Origin: Miltoncostaea oceani
GTDB taxonomy: Bacteria > Actinomycetota > Thermoleophilia > Miltoncostaeales > Miltoncostaeaceae
Length of the DNA: 64,000 nt
Assembly: GCF_018141545.1 (NCBI RefSeq)
Contig: NZ_CP064356.1
Location: forward strand, 2,493,001-2,557,000
Direction: 5' to 3'
A program made the position numbers and the translations under genes. Of the stretch, positions 2,197-18,750 are shown one piece after another (the first letter of the stretch is position 1; each line of letters starts with the position of its first letter). The notes under the pieces were generated by a model that was given only the letters and a program-made list of their open reading frames with translations, ran no database searches and had not been told where the DNA came from.

Positions 2197-3804
2197 TCAG
2201 TTGATCCGGCGTTGGTGCCCGGTCCACTCCCGTTCGCGCAGCTCGAACTTGCGGACCTTGCCGGTGGAGGTGCGGGGCAGCTCGTCGACGACCTCGAAGG
2301 CGTCGGGGCACTTGTAGGCGGCGAGGCGTCCCCGGACGTGTGCGGTGAGCTCGTCGGCGCCGGCGGACGCCCCGGCGCGGAGCACCACGAACGCCTTCGG
2401 GCGTTCGCCCCAGCGGTCGTCGGGGATGCCGATGACGGCGGCCTCGAGCACGGCGGGGTGGCTCGTCACGGCCTGCTCCACCTCGATCGTCGAGATGTTC
2501 TCCCCGCCGGAGATGACGACGTCCTTCGCCCGGTCGCGCAGCTCGATGTAGCCGTCGGGGTGGTGCACGCCGAGGTCGCCCGAGTGGAACACGCCGCCGC
2601 GGAACGCCGCCGCGGTGCCCTCGGGGTCGGCGAAGTACCCCTTCATGACGTTGTTGCCGGTCATGACGACCTCGCCGACGGTGACGCCGTCGCGGGGGAC
2701 GTCGGCGCCGTCGGGCCCGACGACGCGGATGGGGTCGGCCATCACCATCGCGACGCCCTGGCGCGACAGCAGCCGGGCGCGTTCGACGGGCTCCTCGCCG
2801 GCCCAGCCGAGCTGCCACTGGCAGACGGTGTGCGGCCCGTACGTCTCGGTGAGCCCGTAGACGTGGACGACCCGTGCGCCGAGGGCCTCCGTCTGGGCGA
2901 GCACCGTCGGGTTGGGCGGGGCCGCCGCCGTCATGACGCACAGCGGGTGGTCGAGGGGGTGGGCGCCGGGGTCGTTGACCAGCATGGAGAGCACGGCGGG
3001 GGCGCCGTTGAGGTGGGTGATCCCCTCCTCGTCGATGAGGCGCCAGATCGCGTCGCCGCGCACGGCGCGCAGGCACACCTGCACCCCGCCGGCGGCGACG
3101 ATCGCCCACGGGTGGCACCAGCCGTTGCAGTGGAACATCGGGAGGGTCCACAGGTAGACGGTGTCGGGGCCGTGGGCGGCGGTGATGTTCTCGCCGAGGG
3201 CGTTGAGGTACGCGCCACGGTGGGTGTACATCACGCCCTTCGGCGCGCCCGTCGTGCCGGACGTGTAGTTGATGGCGATGGTGGCGTCCTCGTCGTCGAC
3301 CCGCCACGGCAGCGACGCCGCGCCCTCCCCGCGCTCGCGGAGCGTCGCGTAGGGGGTGCCGGGCGCGCCGGGGTCGGCGCCGGTGCCGTCGTCGTCCCAG
3401 ACGACCTCCCCCACCCCCATGCGGTCGATGACCGGGACGACGGAGCCCGCGAGAGCGGTGTCGGCCACGATCATCCGCGCGCCCGAGTGGAGGCAGATGG
3501 AGCGGACCTCCTCGGCGTGCAACCGGGTGTTGACGGCGACGAGCACCGCGCCGGCGAGCGGCACGGCGAAGTGCGCGACGAGCAGCGTGGGGGTGTTGGG
3601 GCACAGGTAGGCGACCCGGTCGCCGGGCCCGATGCCGGAGGCCCGCAGCCCCGCGGCGACCCGCTGCACCTCCGCGGCGAGGTCGCGGTAGGTCATGCGG
3701 ACGTCGCCGTGCACCACGGCGGTGGCGTCGGCGAAGACGTCGGCGGAGCGCTCCAGCAGCAGGAGCGGCGTCAGCGGAGTGATGTGGACCGGGTGGGCGC
3801 TCAT
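2197..3804 (-). CDS. AMP-forming acyl-CoA synthetase (fatty-acid CoA ligase family)
   Basis: The 535-residue protein is a full-length ANL-superfamily adenylating enzyme, which activates a carboxylic acid with ATP to an acyl-AMP and transfers it to CoA. The phosphate-binding motif Y-T-S-G-T-T-G-A-P-K-G lies at 180-190, the Y-G-L-T-E-T motif follows near 310, the hinge region contains H-S-G-D-L-G, and the C-terminal catalytic lysine lies in R-T-S-T-G-K-V-R-K near 518. The spacing and the H-C-N-G-W stretch near 230 are typical of medium/long-chain fatty acyl-CoA ligases of the FadD/AlkK type; the exact substrate cannot be read. It is divergent from the antiporter gene, 57 bp away. Confidence 0.92.
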   Translation of the reverse strand: MSAHPVHITPLTPLLLLERSADVFADATAVVHGDVRMTYRDLAAEVQRVAAGLRASGIGPGDRVAYLCPNTPTLLVAHFAVPLAGAVLVAVNTRLHAEEVRSICLHSGARMIVADTALAGSVVPVIDRMGVGEVVWDDDGTGADPGAPGTPYATLRERGEGAASLPWRVDDEDATIAINYTSGTTGAPKGVMYTHRGAYLNALGENITAAHGPDTVYLWTLPMFHCNGWCHPWAIVAAGGVQVCLRAVRGDAIWRLIDEEGITHLNGAPAVLSMLVNDPGAHPLDHPLCVMTAAAPPNPTVLAQTEALGARVVHVYGLTETYGPHTVCQWQLGWAGEEPVERARLLSRQGVAMVMADPIRVVGPDGADVPRDGVTVGEVVMTGNNVMKGYFADPEGTAAAFRGGVFHSGDLGVHHPDGYIELRDRAKDVVISGGENISTIEVEQAVTSHPAVLEAAVIGIPDDRWGERPKAFVVLRAGASAGADELTAHVRGRLAAYKCPDAFEVVDELPRTSTGKVRKFELREREWTGHQRRIN

Positions 3805-3861: not shown

Positions 3862-5736
3862 GTGGAACCCGCCCTCCTCGTCCTCGCGCTGGTGGTGACC
3901 GTCGGCGCCGTCGCCGGCCTGTGCCGCCGCTTCGGGTGGTCGCCGCCGCCGGTGCTGGTGCTGGTCGGCATCCTCGCGTCGTTCCTGCCGGCGGTGCCGG
4001 AGTTCGAGCTCGACCCGGAGCTGGTGCTGATCGGGTTCCTGCCGCCCCTGCTCTACGCGGCGGCCATCCGGACGTCGTTCGTCGACTTCCGGGCGAACAC
4101 GTACGCGATCCTGCTGCTGTCCGTCGGCGCCGTGATCGTCAGCACGTTCGCCGTCGGCCTGGTGGCGTGGTGGATCGTCCCGGGCGTCTCCCTGGCCGCC
4201 GCCCTCGCGCTCGGCGCGGTGGTCGCCCCGCCCGACGCGGTCGCGGCGACGGCGATCGCCCGCAAGGTGGGGATGCCCCGCCGGATCGTGACGATCCTGG
4301 AGGGCGAGAGCCTCGTGAACGACGCGACGGCGCTGGTGCTGCTGAGCGTCACGATCACGGCGATCACCGGCAGCGTGGGCGTCGGCGAGATCGGGTGGGA
4401 GTTCGTGCGCGCCGTGGGCGGCGGGATCGTGATCGGCGTGGTCGTGGCGCAGCTGCTGTCGTTCGTGCGGGCCCGCATCGACGACCCGGTGCTCGACACC
4501 CTGCTGTCGTTCACCGCCCCGTTCGTGGCGTTCCTGCCGGCGGAGGCGATCCACTCGTCGGGGGTGCTCGCCGTGGTGATCACGGGCCTCCTGCTCGGCC
4601 ACCGGGCCCCGGTGCTGCAGTCGGCGGCGTCGCGGGTGAGCGAGAGCGTCAACTGGCGCACGGTCCAGTTCATGCTCGAGAACGTCGTGTTCCTGCTGAT
4701 CGGGCTGCAGCTGCGGACGATCCTGCAGGACGTCGCCGACTCCGACCTCGGCCCGGGCCGCCTCGCCGCGATCTGCCTCACGGTGCTGGCGGCGGTGGTG
4801 GCGGTGCGGTTCGCCTACGTCTTCGGCTCGCAGGCGGTCCACCGCTTCGGCGGGCCCCGGATGCGCCGCCGGTCGTGGCCGACGAGCTCGTCGACGGTGG
4901 TGTCGTGGGCGGGGATGCGGGGCGTGGTGACGCTGGCGGCGGCGTTCCTGCTGCCGCCGGAGACGCCCCAGCGCGACGTGCTGCTGCTCGCGGCGTTCAC
5001 GGTGGTGGCGGGGACGTTGCTGGTGCTGAGCCCGACGTTGCCGTGGCTGGTGCGCCGCCTCGGCCTCTCGGGCCCGGACGCGGCGGAGGACGCCCTGCAG
5101 GCCGCGGCCCTCGCCGACGAGGCGTCACGGGCGGGGCTGGCGCGCCTCGACCGGGTGCTGAAGGCGACGGATCCGCAGGAGGTCGTCGACGAGCTGCGCG
5201 AGCGGGCCCGGCGGCGGCCGAACATGATCTGGGAGCGCCTCGGCCGCTCGAACGACGTGCTGGAGCCCCCGTCCGCCGCCTACGTGCGGCTGCGGCTGGA
5301 GATGCTCGCCGCGGAGCGCGAGGCGATCATCGCCCGCCGCGACAGCGGCACCATCGACGACGAGGTGCTGCGCGAGGCGCTGGCGATGGTCGACCGGGAG
5401 GAGTCGCTGCTCGACCGGCTCGAGTCGGCGGAGCGGCGCATCGGCGAGGCGGAGCTCGTCGCCCCCGAGCGCACATCCGGCGACTGCGAGCACCTGCGCG
5501 CCGCACCCCGCACCGCCCGCGCCGCCACCCCCGGCGCGTGCGAGGACTGCCTGCGCGAGGGCACCCGCTGGGTCCACCTGCGGATGTGCCTCGCCTGCGG
5601 GCACGTCGGCTGCTGCGACAGCTCCGTCGGCCGCCACGCCGAACGCCACTTCCACGACGTCGGCCACCCCGTGATGCGCTCCATCGAGCCGGGCGAGGCG
5701 TGGCGGTGGTGCTACATCGACGAGCACCTCGGGTGA
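3862..5736 (+). CDS. CPA1-family Na+(K+)/H+ antiporter with C-terminal UBP-type zinc finger
   Basis: The 624-residue protein exchanges a monovalent cation for protons across the cytoplasmic membrane. About twelve membrane segments fill residues 1-405, with the family motifs P-P-D-A-V-A (123-128) and E-S-L-V-N-D-A-T-A-L (149-158), whose N-D pair is the ion site in CPA1 exchangers. A cytoplasmic helical region (about 420-540) follows. The last 80 residues hold a Cys/His-rich module: C-E-H, C-E-D-C, C-L-A-C-G, C-C, H-A-E-R-H and H, the order of a ZnF-UBP finger. The GTG at 3862 is chosen because it is the first start in frame before the hydrophobic N-terminus; no clear ribosome site precedes it. 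Confidence 0.9.
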   Translation: MEPALLVLALVVTVGAVAGLCRRFGWSPPPVLVLVGILASFLPAVPEFELDPELVLIGFLPPLLYAAAIRTSFVDFRANTYAILLLSVGAVIVSTFAVGLVAWWIVPGVSLAAALALGAVVAPPDAVAATAIARKVGMPRRIVTILEGESLVNDATALVLLSVTITAITGSVGVGEIGWEFVRAVGGGIVIGVVVAQLLSFVRARIDDPVLDTLLSFTAPFVAFLPAEAIHSSGVLAVVITGLLLGHRAPVLQSAASRVSESVNWRTVQFMLENVVFLLIGLQLRTILQDVADSDLGPGRLAAICLTVLAAVVAVRFAYVFGSQAVHRFGGPRMRRRSWPTSSSTVVSWAGMRGVVTLAAAFLLPPETPQRDVLLLAAFTVVAGTLLVLSPTLPWLVRRLGLSGPDAAEDALQAAALADEASRAGLARLDRVLKATDPQEVVDELRERARRRPNMIWERLGRSNDVLEPPSAAYVRLRLEMLAAEREAIIARRDSGTIDDEVLREALAMVDREESLLDRLESAERRIGEAELVAPERTSGDCEHLRAAPRTARAATPGACEDCLREGTRWVHLRMCLACGHVGCCDSSVGRHAERHFHDVGHPVMRSIEPGEAWRWCYIDEHLG

Positions 5737-12531: not shown

Positions 12532-13575
12532 CTACGGCGTGTACCGCCACACCCGGTAGGTGCCACGTCCGCAGGTGCCGTACCCCATGCCGATGCGGCC
12601 CGTGACCACGTACCGCGAGCGGTCGAGGGTCGCGAACCGCTTGACCCCCGCGTAGGTCGCGCGGAGCCCGGCCCGCCGCGCCAGCGCCACCGCGGCCCGC
12701 GCCGACCGGGCGCGGGCGATCAGCCCCTCGGGCACGTGGCACCGGGCGTCCAGGGCGGGCAGGCTGCCCGCGAGGTACAGCTCCGAGCCGATCCGGACGT
12801 CCATCCGCTGGGTGTCCTGGGGTCCGAACGGGCTGTCGGAGAACGTCGGGCGGTCCGCAAGGGAGATCATCACGCGCCACCCGGCGCGGGTGCGCCGCAC
12901 CGGCCAGTCCAGCGACCGGCTGTTCTCGGTCAACCAGTCGGTGATCGGCCGCGGCACCGCTCCCTGGCCGTTCAGGGCGATGATCCGCGCCAGTCGCTCC
13001 GCGGGGACGCCGGATCCCGGGCACGGGTACGCACCCGACGTGGTGTGGCGGCCCGGCAGCGCGAACCGGTCGGCGATGTACCACCCGTTCGGATCCGGCG
13101 CCAGGTACGGGGCGAGGCCGACGGTGCCCCGGCCCGTGATCAGGTCGAGGCGGGGCGGGAGGATCTCGAAGGCGACCCGGCCGTCGGCGACACCCGCGGC
13201 GGAGCTCGTCGCGGAGGCCGTGTACTCCGACGGCTCACCGTCCTCCGTCGTGGTCTGGCAGATCACCGTCTCCGTCCGGGTGTACGCGAGGTCCGTGGCA
13301 CGGGCCGCCTGCACCTGGGGCGCGAACGGCCGCCGGGTCGGCTCGCCGAGGGCGGGGTCCGCGATCGCCGCGAGCGTCGCCCGGCGCGCGGCGGCGGAAG
13401 GGTCGAACGTGAAGCGGGCCGAGCCCGACCACTGCGTGATCGGCGCCCCGGCGACGCCGTCCCAGCTCGCCGTCAGCGTCCCCCGCACCCCGGAGCCCGG
13501 GGCGACGGCCAGCGCCGGCGGGGCGGCCATCGCGAGCACGACGGGCAGGGCGACGATCACGCGGCGGAGTCTCAT
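12532..13575 (-). CDS. Secreted hypothetical protein
   Basis: The 347-residue product begins M-R-L-R-R-V-I-V-A-L-P-V-V-L and continues with an Ala-rich hydrophobic stretch ending A-L-A-V-A, a clear Sec signal peptide of about 23 residues. That is why the ATG at 13575 is chosen over an upstream start at 13608. The mature part is Thr/Ser-rich with likely beta structure and six or more Cys (for example C-P-G-S-G, C-H-V-P-E, Y-G-T-C-G-R-G-T-Y), so disulfides are likely. No enzymatic motif is visible. It is separate from the pseudokinase gene, 54 bp away. Confidence 0.78.
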   Translation of the reverse strand: MRLRRVIVALPVVLAMAAPPALAVAPGSGVRGTLTASWDGVAGAPITQWSGSARFTFDPSAAARRATLAAIADPALGEPTRRPFAPQVQAARATDLAYTRTETVICQTTTEDGEPSEYTASATSSAAGVADGRVAFEILPPRLDLITGRGTVGLAPYLAPDPNGWYIADRFALPGRHTTSGAYPCPGSGVPAERLARIIALNGQGAVPRPITDWLTENSRSLDWPVRRTRAGWRVMISLADRPTFSDSPFGPQDTQRMDVRIGSELYLAGSLPALDARCHVPEGLIARARSARAAVALARRAGLRATYAGVKRFATLDRSRYVVTGRIGMGYGTCGRGTYRVWRYTP

Positions 13576-13629
13576 GCGGGCCTCGGTGACGGGGGATGCC
13601 GCGGGCACGCTAGCGGAGCCCCGGCCCCG

Positions 13630-14892
13630 TCACGGCGTCGTCGTCACGGCCAGCGCGATCACCACGTCCACCGCGGTGCCCGCGGGCACCTGCGTCGCGG
13701 CGGCCGGATCCTGGGAGAGGACCGTCCCCGCGGGCACGTCGGAGCGCGCCTCCTGCGTCACCGCGCCGGGCCGCAGGCCGACGCGCGCGAGCTCGGCGGC
13801 GGCATCGTCCACGGTCCGGCCCGCCAGGTCCGGCACGGTCACGGTGGTGCTCGGCGGCGGCGTGGTGACCGCCGGGGGACCGCTGCTGACCGTGACCGCC
13901 ACGATCGACCCGGTGGGGATCCGCACGCCCGCCGCGGGGTCCTGGGACACCACCGTGCCGACGGGGGCCGACGTGCTCTCCGCCTCCAGGTACCGCCCGG
14001 TCAGGCCCACCTCCTGCAGCTGGCGCTCGGCGTCGTCGCGGGTGGCCCCCGTCAGCGCGGGCACCACCACGTCCGCCGTCGTCCGCGCCGGGGCGCCGTC
14101 GCCGTCGCCGTCGTCGCGCAGCAGCAGGAGGGCCGCGCCCGCGACCAGCAGCAGGGCGAGGAGGGCGACGAGCGCCCACGGCCACCGCGACGACCGCGGC
14201 CCCGGGGGCGGGGGCGGCGGGATGACCGCCGGGGGCGTCTCGCCCACGGCGGCGAGCAGGCGGCCGCGGAGCTCCTCGGCGGAGCGCACGCGGCCGGCGA
14301 GCGCGTCGTCGATCGCCGCGCGCACGGCGGGCGGCGGCTCGGAGCCGGCCAGCAGGTCGCGCAGCGACCCCCCGGTCGCGGCGACGGACGGATCCGCCCC
14401 CGGGGCACCGGCGCCGGAGCCGTCGGCGAGGCGGGTGACGCGCAGCGTGCCGTCGGCGGTGACGAGCGCCGACGCCACGACGGGCTCGGAGCCGTCGCCG
14501 GCGTTGCGGCGCGCCGCGATGCTCGCGTCGAGCAGCGCGACGCCGAGGCCGACGGCCTCCGCCACCGGCAGCGGCGCCCGGTGCCGGGCGAGCTCGTCGA
14601 GGGGCGTTCCGGGGATCAGCTCACCCGCCGTGTACGCGCCCCCGCCGGGCAGCTCCCCCGCGTCGAGCACGGCCACCGCCGCCGGCGTGTGGGCGTGCAC
14701 CGCCGACATCCGCCGTCCGTCGGCCAGCAGCACCTCCGCCGCCCGCGGGTCGCGCTCCACCACCCGCAGGGCGACCTCCCGGTCGAGGTGGCGGTCGAAC
14801 GCCAGGTAGACACGGCCCGACGCCAGGCCGCCGCCCAGCATGCGGATCAGCTCGTACCGGTCGGCGACGACCGCGCCGGGGCCGAGGGTCAT
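13630..14892 (-). CDS. Membrane-bound PASTA-domain protein with a degenerate kinase domain
   Basis: The 420-residue protein has the layout of PknB/StkP receptor kinases: a cytoplasmic kinase-like domain (about 10-212), a proline-rich linker, one membrane helix (about 238-258) and two extracellular PASTA domains (about 268-335 and 346-413; each has V-P-x-L-x-G-x-T/R-x-x-D-A). PASTA repeats bind peptidoglycan fragments. The kinase part lacks the catalytic residues: Arg43 stands where the V-A-I-K lysine should be, the H-R-D loop is missing, and R-L-A-D-G near 154-158 replaces D-F-G. It is therefore predicted to sense or scaffold rather than phosphorylate. Confidence 0.85.
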   Translation of the reverse strand: MTLGPGAVVADRYELIRMLGGGLASGRVYLAFDRHLDREVALRVVERDPRAAEVLLADGRRMSAVHAHTPAAVAVLDAGELPGGGAYTAGELIPGTPLDELARHRAPLPVAEAVGLGVALLDASIAARRNAGDGSEPVVASALVTADGTLRVTRLADGSGAGAPGADPSVAATGGSLRDLLAGSEPPPAVRAAIDDALAGRVRSAEELRGRLLAAVGETPPAVIPPPPPPGPRSSRWPWALVALLALLLVAGAALLLLRDDGDGDGAPARTTADVVVPALTGATRDDAERQLQEVGLTGRYLEAESTSAPVGTVVSQDPAAGVRIPTGSIVAVTVSSGPPAVTTPPPSTTVTVPDLAGRTVDDAAAELARVGLRPGAVTQEARSDVPAGTVLSQDPAAATQVPAGTAVDVVIALAVTTTP

Positions 14893-14929: not shown

Positions 14930-16441
14930 TCACGACCCCCGCGTCCCGGGTCCGGCGCCGCCGGGCAGGTCCCACCGGTGCCCCGGCGCGCCCGTCGCTC
15001 CGCGCTCCAGATAGGCCTCCGTCATGGCGGCGAGGGCCCGCGCCCGGTCGGTGCCCCCGCCCACCGCCGCGAGGGCCCGGCGCTGCCACACCGCACCCGT
15101 CACGCCCGTCTCCACCCGCTCCGCGATCACGTTCAGCCATCCGTCGGCGTCGGCGGCCTCGACGCCCATCCCCGTCAGCCCCGCCCGCGCCACCGGCAGG
15201 AGGCGGCGCACCAGCTCCGCCGCCGGGAACGGCCGGGGGCTGGGGGCCTCCTGCGACGGCCACAGCAGCGTCGCGTCGAGCCCGGCCCGCGACGCCGTGT
15301 AGAAGTTGCGTCGCGCGAACTCGAACGGCAGCGACCGGCACATCCACCCCATCTGGGGCGCCAGCGCCAGCGTCAGCCCCAGCAGGAACGCCACGTTCGC
15401 GGTCATGTCGGCGACCGTCGGCCCGGCGGGCAGGGCGCGCATCTCGATCCGCAGGTGGGGGTCGTCGCCCAGGTCCACGACCGCGCGGTTCCACCGCCAC
15501 ACCGTCCCGTGGTGCAGGCGCAGCTCGTCCAGGGCGGGGGTCCCGCCGGTGGCGACCACGGCGAGCGGCTCCTCCTCGTCACCCACGACGGGGAGGATCG
15601 GCACGTGCAGGGCCACGCTCTCCGCGAAGGGCTCGACGGGGGAGGCGATCCACCCGTGGCCGAAGCTCGCGCGGCTCGGCAGCCAGGCGGCCCCGATCGG
15701 GGCGCGGTCGTCGACCGCCTGGCCGAACAGGGCGATCCGCGTCTCGGCCCACAGCAGGTGCTCCAGCAGGATCGGGGAGTTCCCCGACACCGCCAGGACG
15801 GGGGCGACCGCCGCCTGCGCGGCGTTGAACACCGAGGCGAACGCGCCCGGCGGGACGCGCAGGTGCACGTGCAGGCCGGTCGCGGCCCCCTCCAGGGTGA
15901 TGTCGTCCCAGTCGAGCAGCAGGGGCTCGTCGCCGTCGATGCCGATCTCGAACGGCCCGCCGCGCAGGCCGCGCAGCCCGGCCTGCAGGGCCCGGAAGCG
16001 CGGGGAGTCGGTCATGGCGTGGGCGCCGAGGTCGTCGCGGCGCAGGGTCGGCAGGATCCCGATGGCGATCGGCCGGGCGCCGACGCCGGCGGCGGCCGCG
16101 GCCACCCGGCCGAGGCCGGCGGCGAGGTTGTCGTGGATCGCCCCCAGCGGCCGCCCCGCCAGCATCACCGGCGCCGTGTTCAGCTCGAGGTTGAAGCGGT
16201 CGAGCTCCACGTCGAGGTCGGGGTCGCCGGCGGCGGCCTGCACCTCCCGGTTGAGCGGCGCGGGACGGGCGTCGGCGTCGACCAGGCCGATCTCCACCTC
16301 GACCCCCGTCGACGGCGGCCCGTCGCCGAACCCGGGGCGCGCGACCACCTGCTCCAGCGCGCGGACGCCGTCGCGGCACCGGGCGGCGAACCGCCGGTGG
16401 TCCTCGTCCGAGAAGCTCTCGGTCGCGATCTCCTCGCCCAT
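14930..16441 (-). CDS. GCS2-type glutamate-cysteine ligase family protein
   Basis: The 503-residue protein resembles the glutamate-cysteine ligase type 2 family (ATP-dependent carboxylate-amine ligases): the N-terminal strand G-V-E-V-E-I-G-L-V carries the paired metal-binding Glu residues, and E-L-D-R-F-N-L-E-L-N-T-A-P supplies the next acidic cluster. H-L-H-V-H-L-R and L-R-I-E-M-R-A-L-P-A-G-P-T-V-A-D provide the later conserved patches. Substrates could be glutamate plus cysteine (for mycothiol-free thiols or ergothioneine-type pathways) or another amine. The ATG at 16441 is favoured because the M-G-E-E-I start lacks the Arg-rich upstream extension. It is divergent from the MFS gene. Confidence 0.8.
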   Translation of the reverse strand: MGEEIATESFSDEDHRRFAARCRDGVRALEQVVARPGFGDGPPSTGVEVEIGLVDADARPAPLNREVQAAAGDPDLDVELDRFNLELNTAPVMLAGRPLGAIHDNLAAGLGRVAAAAAGVGARPIAIGILPTLRRDDLGAHAMTDSPRFRALQAGLRGLRGGPFEIGIDGDEPLLLDWDDITLEGAATGLHVHLRVPPGAFASVFNAAQAAVAPVLAVSGNSPILLEHLLWAETRIALFGQAVDDRAPIGAAWLPSRASFGHGWIASPVEPFAESVALHVPILPVVGDEEEPLAVVATGGTPALDELRLHHGTVWRWNRAVVDLGDDPHLRIEMRALPAGPTVADMTANVAFLLGLTLALAPQMGWMCRSLPFEFARRNFYTASRAGLDATLLWPSQEAPSPRPFPAAELVRRLLPVARAGLTGMGVEAADADGWLNVIAERVETGVTGAVWQRRALAAVGGGTDRARALAAMTEAYLERGATGAPGHRWDLPGGAGPGTRGS

Positions 16442-16511
16442 CCGCCCTCTCGTTCCCCGGGTCCGCGGGTTCCCCTGGCACACCCCTCACCGGGAGAGTA
16501 GAACCCCGGGG

Positions 16512-18038
16512 ATGCCCGCTCCCCCGTCACCCCAGACACCCGGGGAGGACGAGGCGGGGGGGATCCGGTTCGCGTCGCGCCGCGGACGGCTCATCCTGCT
16601 CGCCACCGTGCTGGGCTCGGGGATGGCGTTCCTCGACGGCACCGTCGTCAACGTCGCCCTGCCGAGCATCGGCGAGGACCTCGGCGCCGACCTCGCCGGC
16701 CTGCAGTGGACGGTCAACGCGTACGCCCTGACGCTGGCGGGCCTGCTGCTGATCGGCGGGTCGCTCGGCGACCACCTGGGGCGGCGTCGGGTCTTCGCGT
16801 TCGGCGTGGCGTGGTTCGCCGTCGCGTCGCTGCTCTGCGCGGTCGCCCCGTCCATCGAGACCCTGATCGCGGCGCGGGCGATCCAGGGGGTCGGCGCCGC
16901 GCTGCTGACACCCGGCAGCCTCGCCCTGCTCGAGGCGACGTTCCACCCCGACGACCGCGGCGCGGCGATCGGCGCGTGGTCGGGCCTGGCGGGCGTCTCC
17001 ACCGCGTTCGGCCCGTTCCTCGGCGGCTGGCTCGTCGAGGCCGTGTCGTGGCGGCTGATCTTCCTCATCAACCTGCCCCTCGCGGTCGTCGTGCTCTGGG
17101 CGAGCCGGGCGATCCCGGAGTCGCGCGACCCCGCGGCGCAGGGGGTGCGGCTCGACTGGACGGGGGCGGTGCTCACCGCGGTGGGCCTGGCGGGGGTGAC
17201 CTACGCCCTGACCGAGGGACCCGGGGCGGGCTGGGACGACCCCGCGGTCGTGGTGCTCGGCCTCGGCGGCGTCGCCTGCCTCGCCGCGTTCGTGCTCGTC
17301 GAGGCCCGCGGCCGCCACCCCATGGTGCCCCTCGGGATCTTCCGGTCCCGGACGTTCTCGACGGCGAACATCATGACCTTCGTGGTCTACGGGGCGCTCG
17401 GCGCGGCGCTGTTCCTTCTGCCGATCCAGCTCCAGCAGGTCGCCGGCTACAGCCCGATCCAGGCGGGCTCCGCGCTGATCCCGATGACGATCGTGATGCT
17501 GCTGCTCTCCACCAGCGCCGGACGGCTCTCGCAGCGCATCGGCCCGCGCATCCCCATGGGCGTCGGCCCGATCGTCGCGGGCGGTGGGCTGGCCCTGTTC
17601 ACCCGCATCGGCGAGGGGGCGTCGTACGTCACCGACGTCCTGCCGGCGGTGCTGGTGTTCGCGCTCGGCATGTCGATCACCGTCGCGCCGCTCAACGTCA
17701 CCGTGCTGAGCGCCGCGGGCGCCGACCGCGCCGGGGTCGCGTCGGCCATCAACAACGCCGTCGCCCGCGTCGCCGGCCTCCTCGCCGTCGCCGTGATCCC
17801 CGTCGTCGCGGGGATCTCGGGCGACGACTACCTGGTCCCCGAGGCCTTCGACGAGGGCTTCCGCACCGGCACCCTTATCTGCGCGGGGCTGTGCGTCGCG
17901 GGCGGCGTGTTCACCTTGATCGCCCTGCGCAACCCGCCCGCGCCGGCGGAGACCGAGGACGTCCCGCCGCACTGCTGCCTCAACGGGCCGCCCCCCGAGA
18001 TGCCCGCCGACCACCCCGCGGCGGCCGCGGCCTCCTGA
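16512..18038 (+). CDS. MFS multidrug exporter, DHA2 (EmrB/QacA) family
   Basis: The 508-residue protein has about 14 membrane helices, the count of DHA2 drug:H+ antiporters. Motif D1 is L-D-G-T-V-V-N-V-A-L-P-S-I in helix 1, motif A is G-D-H-L-G-R-R-R near 78-85, and motif C, with G-x-x-x-G-P-x-x-G-G, is seen as A-F-G-P-F-L-G-G-W in helix 5. The C-terminal tail is Pro/Ala-rich with a C-C-L-N patch. Substrates cannot be read from sequence. It is followed 40 bp later by a two-component pair, which might regulate it, though this order is also common by chance. Confidence 0.93.
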   Translation: MPAPPSPQTPGEDEAGGIRFASRRGRLILLATVLGSGMAFLDGTVVNVALPSIGEDLGADLAGLQWTVNAYALTLAGLLLIGGSLGDHLGRRRVFAFGVAWFAVASLLCAVAPSIETLIAARAIQGVGAALLTPGSLALLEATFHPDDRGAAIGAWSGLAGVSTAFGPFLGGWLVEAVSWRLIFLINLPLAVVVLWASRAIPESRDPAAQGVRLDWTGAVLTAVGLAGVTYALTEGPGAGWDDPAVVVLGLGGVACLAAFVLVEARGRHPMVPLGIFRSRTFSTANIMTFVVYGALGAALFLLPIQLQQVAGYSPIQAGSALIPMTIVMLLLSTSAGRLSQRIGPRIPMGVGPIVAGGGLALFTRIGEGASYVTDVLPAVLVFALGMSITVAPLNVTVLSAAGADRAGVASAINNAVARVAGLLAVAVIPVVAGISGDDYLVPEAFDEGFRTGTLICAGLCVAGGVFTLIALRNPPAPAETEDVPPHCCLNGPPPEMPADHPAAAAAS

Positions 18039-18078
18039 CCGAGGCGACGGCGGCCCCTCGGCACGCGATACTGGCGGC

Positions 18079-18750
18079 ATGGGCACACCGCTCGTGATGA
18101 TCGTGGAGGACGACGCGGCCCTGCGGTCGGTCCTCGTCCGTGGCCTCCAGGAGGAGGGGTTCCGCTGCGAGGCGCTCGACACGGGCGCCCGCCTGCTGGA
18201 GCGCGTCGAGGTCGTCTGCCCCGACGCCGTGGTCCTCGACATCGGCCTGCCCGACTGCGACGGCCGCGACGCCTGCCAGGCGCTGCGGGCCCGCGGCATC
18301 GACTCGCCCGTCATCTTCCTGACGGCCCGCGACGCCCTCGTCGACCGCCTCGCCGGGTTCGAGGCGGGCGGTGACGACTACCTCTCGAAGCCCTTCTCCC
18401 TCGACGAGCTCCTCGCCCGGCTGCGGGTCGCCGTGCGGCGGTCGCCCGGCGCGGGCGGCGCCGTGCGGGCCGGCGGCGCCGAGCTCGACCCGGCGTCCCA
18501 CGCGCTGCGCGCCGGCGACGCCCTGGTGCGGCTGACCCCGACCGAGTTCCGCATCCTCGCCGCCCTCTTCGCCCGGCCGGGCGAGGCGGTGCGCCGCCGC
18601 GAGCTGGTGCGGGCGGGGTGGCCCCACGGCGCGATCGTCAACGACAACACGCTCGACGCCTACATCGCGCGGCTGCGACGCAAGCTGCGCACGCTCGAGG
18701 CCGCCCCCTCCCTCGAGACGGTCCACGGCGTCGGGTACGCGATCCGGTGA
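18079..18750 (+). CDS. OmpR/PhoB-family response regulator
   Basis: The 223-residue protein combines a receiver domain (acidic pair E11-D12-D13, phosphoacceptor Asp54 in V-L-D-I-G-L-P-D, Thr in F-L-T-A-R, Lys in Y-L-S-K-P-F) with a winged-helix OmpR domain (L-T-P-T-E-F-R-I-L ... D-A-Y-I-A-R-L-R-R-K-L). It would be phosphorylated by the histidine kinase encoded next, whose GTG overlaps this gene's stop by 4 bases. Target genes are unknown; the upstream MFS exporter is one candidate. Confidence 0.95.
   Translation: MGTPLVMIVEDDAALRSVLVRGLQEEGFRCEALDTGARLLERVEVVCPDAVVLDIGLPDCDGRDACQALRARGIDSPVIFLTARDALVDRLAGFEAGGDDYLSKPFSLDELLARLRVAVRRSPGAGGAVRAGGAELDPASHALRAGDALVRLTPTEFRILAALFARPGEAVRRRELVRAGWPHGAIVNDNTLDAYIARLRRKLRTLEAAPSLETVHGVGYAIR

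Follow-up and report, generated by a model that had tools for sequence, protein, structure and literature searches.

The open reading frame described in Table 1, in the window (the whole 64,000-nucleotide stretch of the Miltoncostaea oceani genome analysed here), almost certainly encodes a membrane pseudokinase of the PknB type that is held under constraint. I propose, tentatively, that its role may be that of a partner without catalytic activity within the cell-envelope pathway of PknB. The PknB-type layout with two PASTA domains, anticipated in the original prediction, was borne out. The open reading frame lies exactly where it had been placed, two PASTA stretches match PF03793 in Pfam (E 2.2e-30, 104.9 bits together), with the second scoring highest among the 11 PASTA matches of the genome, and a phmmer search of solved structures aligned residues 6–155 with the kinase domain of StkP (E 1.1e-7) and the C-terminal half with the PASTA region of PknB. 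No Pkinase match to the protein was obtained from Pfam at E ≤ 1, and the NCBIfam PASTA-kinase model NF033483 gave 138.9 bits, against a cut-off of 450. Taken together, these Pfam, NCBIfam and structure-sequence searches indicate that the kinase part is real but degenerate. The hydropathy profile (Kyte-Doolittle, 19 residues) peaks at 2.99 at residue 240, and an Arg before and an Asp after the transmembrane (TM) helix suggest that the kinase side is cytosolic. The GC content of the gene is 0.83/0.60/0.98 by codon position, and Rfam gave no match anywhere in the window.

Table 1. Position and basis of the features of the pseudokinase gene and its neighbours in the window.
Feature	Position	Strand	Description or basis
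Pseudokinase gene	13630..14892	(-)	420 aa, ATG start; degenerate kinase domain, TM, two PASTA
Pseudokinase domain, residues 1-216 (about)	14245..14892	(-)	Alignments to own PknB, AlphaFold2 model, fold matches
Arg43 at the beta-3 (VAIK) lysine position	14764..14766	(-)	Alignment with PknB-type rows
Gly-Ser-Glu, residues 134-136, at the HRD position	14485..14493	(-)	Alignment; Arg-Gly-Asp in both orthologues
Arg154-Leu155 at the DFG position, third residue deleted	14428..14433	(-)	Alignment
Transmembrane helix, about residues 236-258	14119..14187	(-)	Kyte-Doolittle
PASTA domain 1	13882..14070	(-)	PF03793, 50.7 bits
PASTA domain 2	13657..13842	(-)	PF03793, 66.9 bits
GCS2-family glutamate-cysteine ligase gene, upstream	14930..16483	(-)	Ends 37 bp before the pseudokinase
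Predicted secreted protein gene, downstream	12532..13608	(-)	Starts 21 bp after the pseudokinase stop

The reference for the catalytic positions was a set of 25 PknB-type kinase rows, the genome's own PknB and 24 others from the taxonomic family; of 29 loci, L040, L047, L051 and L052 were omitted. Two orthologues from the genus were compared as well, and residues of the three pseudokinases are given below in the order window, G021, G020. Two of the predicted lesions hold throughout: the ATP-binding beta-3 lysine, Lys in 25 of 25 reference rows, is Arg in all three pseudokinases, and the DFG Asp, likewise invariant in the 25 rows, reads R/R/R, with a gap in the DFG Gly column. The claimed loss of HRD stands for the window protein, which has Glu in the catalytic-Asp column, but not for the orthologues, both of which still carry Asp (E/D/D, against D in 25 of 25). 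The catalytic-loop Lys and Asn, again present in every reference row, are V/L/L and S/S/S, and the HRDxKxxN motif is replaced by GSEPVVAS in the window protein. The helix C Glu column reads D/E/E in a 28-row alignment, and glycines 1 and 2 of the glycine loop are retained.

The largest lesion was absent from the original list. Aligned to the PknB of its own genome, the window protein lacks residues in two places, between DFG and helix F and between helix F and helix H. Judging from this alignment, the activation segment including APE is deleted, and the alignments and model indicate that helix G is apparently deleted too, so that the kinase-like domain comprises only about 216 residues. I read the N-lobe and helices D, E, F, H and I as retained, with helix names taken from the alignment and model. 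Catalysis has presumably been lost in the window protein.

A structural model was generated with AlphaFold2 from the window sequence and four related loci (a five-row alignment, MviN rows included), with a mean pLDDT of 76 and a pTM of 0.63; an earlier model from a three-row alignment, with a pLDDT of 46, was left uninterpreted. The model contains a two-lobed protein kinase fold, with helices in its C-terminal part only at residues 168–180, 188–198 and 205–216. The best Foldseek matches were the pseudokinase domain of Rv3910 (MviN), at the top, PknA and PknB (E 5.5e-9 to 1.7e-8), at TM-scores of only 0.41–0.47 and with large rmsd (0.41–0.49 over the best hits), and the rank of MviN was perhaps favoured by the MviN rows in the alignment used for modelling. 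VIA-align gave Z ≥ 8 for 939 of 1000 chains chosen by Foldseek, and the best score, Z 12.4, was to M. tuberculosis PknB (196 residues, rmsd 7.9). The lobes appear correct in the model; how they are placed relative to each other should not be relied on. Structure prediction had been proposed as a check; it returned a kinase-like fold nearest to PknB, PknA and the MviN pseudokinase, and together with the lesions and the TM helix it supports well the identification as a membrane pseudokinase.

Orthologues were found in two of the three other genomes of the genus (G020 and G021, 53 and 54% identity), while G019, the fourth genus genome (99% complete, one contig), encodes PknB only and no pseudokinase. 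Among 42 genomes of the family, orthologues occur only in G020 and G021 (E 1.7e-52 and 6.7e-54), the next-best matches being intact PknBs at E 2e-20 or weaker, and a three-row profile gave more than 360 bits for the three pseudokinases and at most 99.5 bits for any PknB. With the best 7–10 candidates per genome scored, a class-wide search identified the gene in 3 of 299 genomes, all from this genus, and a search of 396 genomes of the phylum, a sample evidently without G020 and G021, matched the window genome alone. Searching the entire collection with the window protein yielded six loci and no orthologues: one kinase with four PASTA domains, two Microbacterium loci that match in the PASTA region, and three MviN pseudokinases of mycobacteria, whose domains are 34–36% identical to the window protein. 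The plasmid collection contained no relative. Judging from these searches, the pseudokinase is restricted to one genus in the genomes sampled.

Both orthologues carry the same lesions and the same deletion as the window protein, and both are 254 residues long, ending directly after the membrane helix (hydropathy maxima 3.87 and 3.58, Kyte-Doolittle, 19 residues) without PASTA domains. The juxtamembrane linkers of the three pseudokinases are dissimilar in the alignment. The orthologue locus has an operon-like order of CapD (Polysacc_synt_2), a 66-residue Cys-containing ORF (read in G021) and the pseudokinase, with a convergent PNPOx gene directly after each orthologue. CapD-PNPOx-Lon is present in the window genome without the pseudokinase, with a different ORF in the gap, and likewise in G019. 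The window pseudokinase is instead probably co-transcribed with the upstream GCS2 gene, which is found in all three other genus genomes with no adjacent pseudokinase within the stretch read (4849 bases only for the G021 contig). The downstream secreted protein has no Pfam or NCBIfam match, and a homologue in one of the three other genus genomes (G019, 55%), at another locus. As both the neighbourhood and the PASTA tail differ between the window and the orthologues, they fall outside the conserved function. The conserved unit, from these comparisons, appears to be a membrane-tethered pseudokinase with lineage-specific PASTA domains, either gained in the window lineage or lost in the orthologues. 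The notion that peptidoglycan sensing is its core task did not survive, both orthologues being without PASTA.

The pseudokinases of G020 and G021 are 80% identical, with dN 0.113, dS 0.387 and dN/dS 0.29, and show a clear excess of synonymous changes (66/218, versus 57/544 non-synonymous, p 1.7e-10). The ratio of 0.29 between the two orthologues indicates that the gene is constrained. The neighbouring CapD and Lon of the same two genomes have ratios roughly one fifth as high (0.053 and 0.054), and the gene is thus constrained yet fast-evolving. Ratios of 0.53 and 0.62 between the orthologues and the window sequence are near saturation, and were therefore set aside. A chance ORF or an assembly error is excluded by the same lesions in two other genomes and by the dN/dS of 0.29. 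On the other hand, the unconserved locus and PASTA domains, the absence from a 99%-complete congener and the high dN/dS suggest that the role is dispensable or fast-changing.

In BLAST, the PknB of the same genome is found first (E 1e-19, 41% identity over 157 residues), and MviN later (E 6e-6). The pseudokinases form a single clade in the trees (100/99 and 100/100), on a long separate branch. When MviN rows are included these join the pseudokinases weakly (79/86), as two very long branches, and without them the pseudokinases stand alone; a topology grouping the pseudokinases with the PknBs of the genus was not rejected (p 0.21). The simplest account of these patterns is probably an old duplication of PknB.

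A check for a co-occurring active-type kinase had also been suggested, and the same genome indeed encodes an intact PknB with four PASTA domains, in a cluster with FhaA (an FhaA_N+FHA homologue), PP2C, FtsW and a PBP; no genomic link from the pseudokinase to this cluster was found. The N-lobe is the best-kept part of the window protein: this PknB has the same residue at 45 of 91 aligned positions there, versus 14 of 50 after residue 158. The N-lobes of the orthologues, with 34/94 and 30/92 identical residues, are not especially PknB-like. In the part of PMC3601408 drawn on here, N-lobe dimerisation is described as the allosteric activation of PknD and PknB, and the S. aureus PknB dimer residues named in the excerpt of PMC3372466 (Arg9, Tyr10, Leu32 and Asp75) all have counterparts in the window protein (R12, Y13, L36 and D77). 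Since the Leu and the Asp are also common in the other kinases of the genome (9/11 and 6/11, respectively), and the D77 column is V in both orthologues, these residues are compatible with pairing to PknB and no more.

If the pseudokinase is a partner of PknB, a protein that has lost its activation segment along with the residues for nucleotide and magnesium would keep a folded core at the membrane, where its cytosolic domain would bind either active PknB, through the back-to-back surface of the N-lobe, or a client of PknB. In the window species, the two PASTA domains may subject it to the peptidoglycan cue that also acts on PknB. In this scheme I infer the partner, the dimer surface, the direction of effect and the PASTA ligand. 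An analogy can be drawn to HER3: the window protein would be a receptor pseudokinase, a catalysis-free PASTA receptor forming a pair with a working PASTA kinase under the same wall signal, and the tethered dead kinase of the sister species would be a constitutive modulator. I consider this more specific picture rather unlikely. To my knowledge, bacterial pseudokinases are almost unstudied. A genome with both an active and a dead form of the best-known bacterial wall-sensing kinase would allow the use of receptor heterodimers in bacteria to be addressed directly, and the orthologues with and without PASTA offer a natural experiment separating sensing from scaffolding roles.

The order of kinase domain, TM and PASTA is that of PknB/Stk1 (NF033483), as is the N-terminal part, through its 41% identity to the PknB of the same genome. 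In contrast to that family, the window protein lacks the VAIK Lys, HRD, DFG and the activation segment, and has two PASTA domains where its own PknB has four; C-terminal PASTA domains after one TM are found in the window protein and not in the two orthologues. Seven annotated bacterial pseudokinase families are described in a 2025 review (PMC12599244), and the following comparisons hold for the part of that review drawn on here. With MviN (Rv3910), of the ActPs3 family, the window protein shares the degradation of all three motifs, the deletion of the activation loop and the membrane attachment (PMC12599244), as well as a similar predicted fold. Unlike MviN it has no MurJ fusion, has Arg rather than Thr at the Lys position, and carries PASTA domains rather than the MviN C-terminal domain. 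The MviN pocket aromatics F724 and W789 correspond to V28 and L92, a mapping inferred from their 65-residue spacing, and to V and F in the orthologues. The Lys-to-Arg change and a C-terminal TM recall ActPs2 and DYD; however, in ActPs2 the HRD Asp is replaced by Asn (E/D/D here) and the activation loop, deleted here, has a 250-residue extension in about 90% of cases, while DYD retains HRD and/or DFG (PMC12599244). All three catalytic residues are changed in ActPs1 as well, and helix G, apparently missing here, is absent from about 60% of its members, but ActPs1 often has a PQQ domain (PMC12599244), of which Pfam found none in the window protein, with its PASTA domains. The window protein thus appears to mix traits of ActPs2/DYD, ActPs3 and ActPs1, and to fit the full definition of none of the families compared, as these are given in that part of the review. 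The word PASTA occurs there once, in the reference list, and no published PASTA pseudokinase was found in the literature among the matches listed.

The main rival to a partnership with PknB is an MviN-like phospho-scaffold, in which phosphorylation of the domain or its juxtamembrane tail by PknB would recruit FhaA and brake envelope synthesis. There is a precedent, in the portion of the review used here, in that PknB phosphorylates the C-terminal tail of the MviN domain and thereby recruits FhaA (PMC12599244). An FhaA_N+FHA protein is encoded within the PknB cluster, database searches found few relatives, MviN domains among them, MviN also heads the fold matches, and in two relatives the gene sits in a polysaccharide-type CapD operon. 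However, there is no conserved Thr-rich tail, the three juxtamembrane linkers being different, and the MviN-specific pocket aromatics are absent from the window protein. The parallel to MviN drawn in the original prediction is upheld by the collection search, the Foldseek ranking and the FhaA homologue, but weakened by the closer similarity to the genome's own PknB, the missing aromatics and the lack of a MurJ fusion; overall, I regard such a scaffold as unlikely.

The dead receptor could also be a decoy or sink, dampening PknB by binding peptidoglycan fragments or lipid II in competition with it. Both PASTA domains are strong matches and similar to those of the PknBs of the genus, but because the orthologues have none, this would be at most a lineage addition rather than the conserved function, and it is improbable. 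A functionless, decaying duplicate is also quite improbable: the gene is patchy in the genus (three of four genomes), lies at different loci and evolves faster than its neighbours, yet the frame is open in all three genomes, which share a derived architecture, the two orthologues are under purifying selection, and the GC content at codon position 3 is like that of neighbouring genes. Most doubtful of all is an unusual catalysis, with another nucleotide or transfer chemistry as in some kinase-fold pseudoenzymes. The two loop glycines are kept, the orthologues keep Asp in the HRD column and Glu in that of helix C, and an Arg for Lys change alone does not preclude nucleotide binding, according to the part of the review drawn on here (PMC12599244). 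Against this, all three proteins have lost the catalytic-loop Asn and Lys, carry Arg for the DFG Asp and lack the activation segment; in the window protein, Glu also stands in for the catalytic Asp. I retain the partnership with PknB as the preferred, if tentative, reading.

Several other loci came to light. A further multi-PASTA locus of the same genome (L095, G000:C1:1115500-1121500) matches PASTA at C1:1117877-1118673, within frames that are 543 and 838 codons long. Two divergent kinases on long branches (L023 and L021, G000:C1:2114518 and 2875466) keep the beta-3 Lys, and partial Pkinase matches lie within long frames at C1:166206 (L026) and C1:2084507 (L027), the latter under the Pfam cut-off; these last two are possibly further degenerate kinases. 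In the three other genus genomes the GCS2 gene, a response regulator and a histidine kinase adjoin; at 14930-18750 of the window the GCS2 and response-regulator genes are separated by one for an MFS-type transporter, and GCS2 is followed by the pseudokinase. Finally, a small ORF of ~65 residues with a conserved Cys/His pattern (CPDHGGEC and FWC) overlaps the CapD stop with its own start (L029:1249-1449 (+); L082:about 3146-3340 (+); L083 near 4758-4950 (-)). The window genome and G019 also have it 3' of CapD, of which it is possibly a small metal-binding partner.
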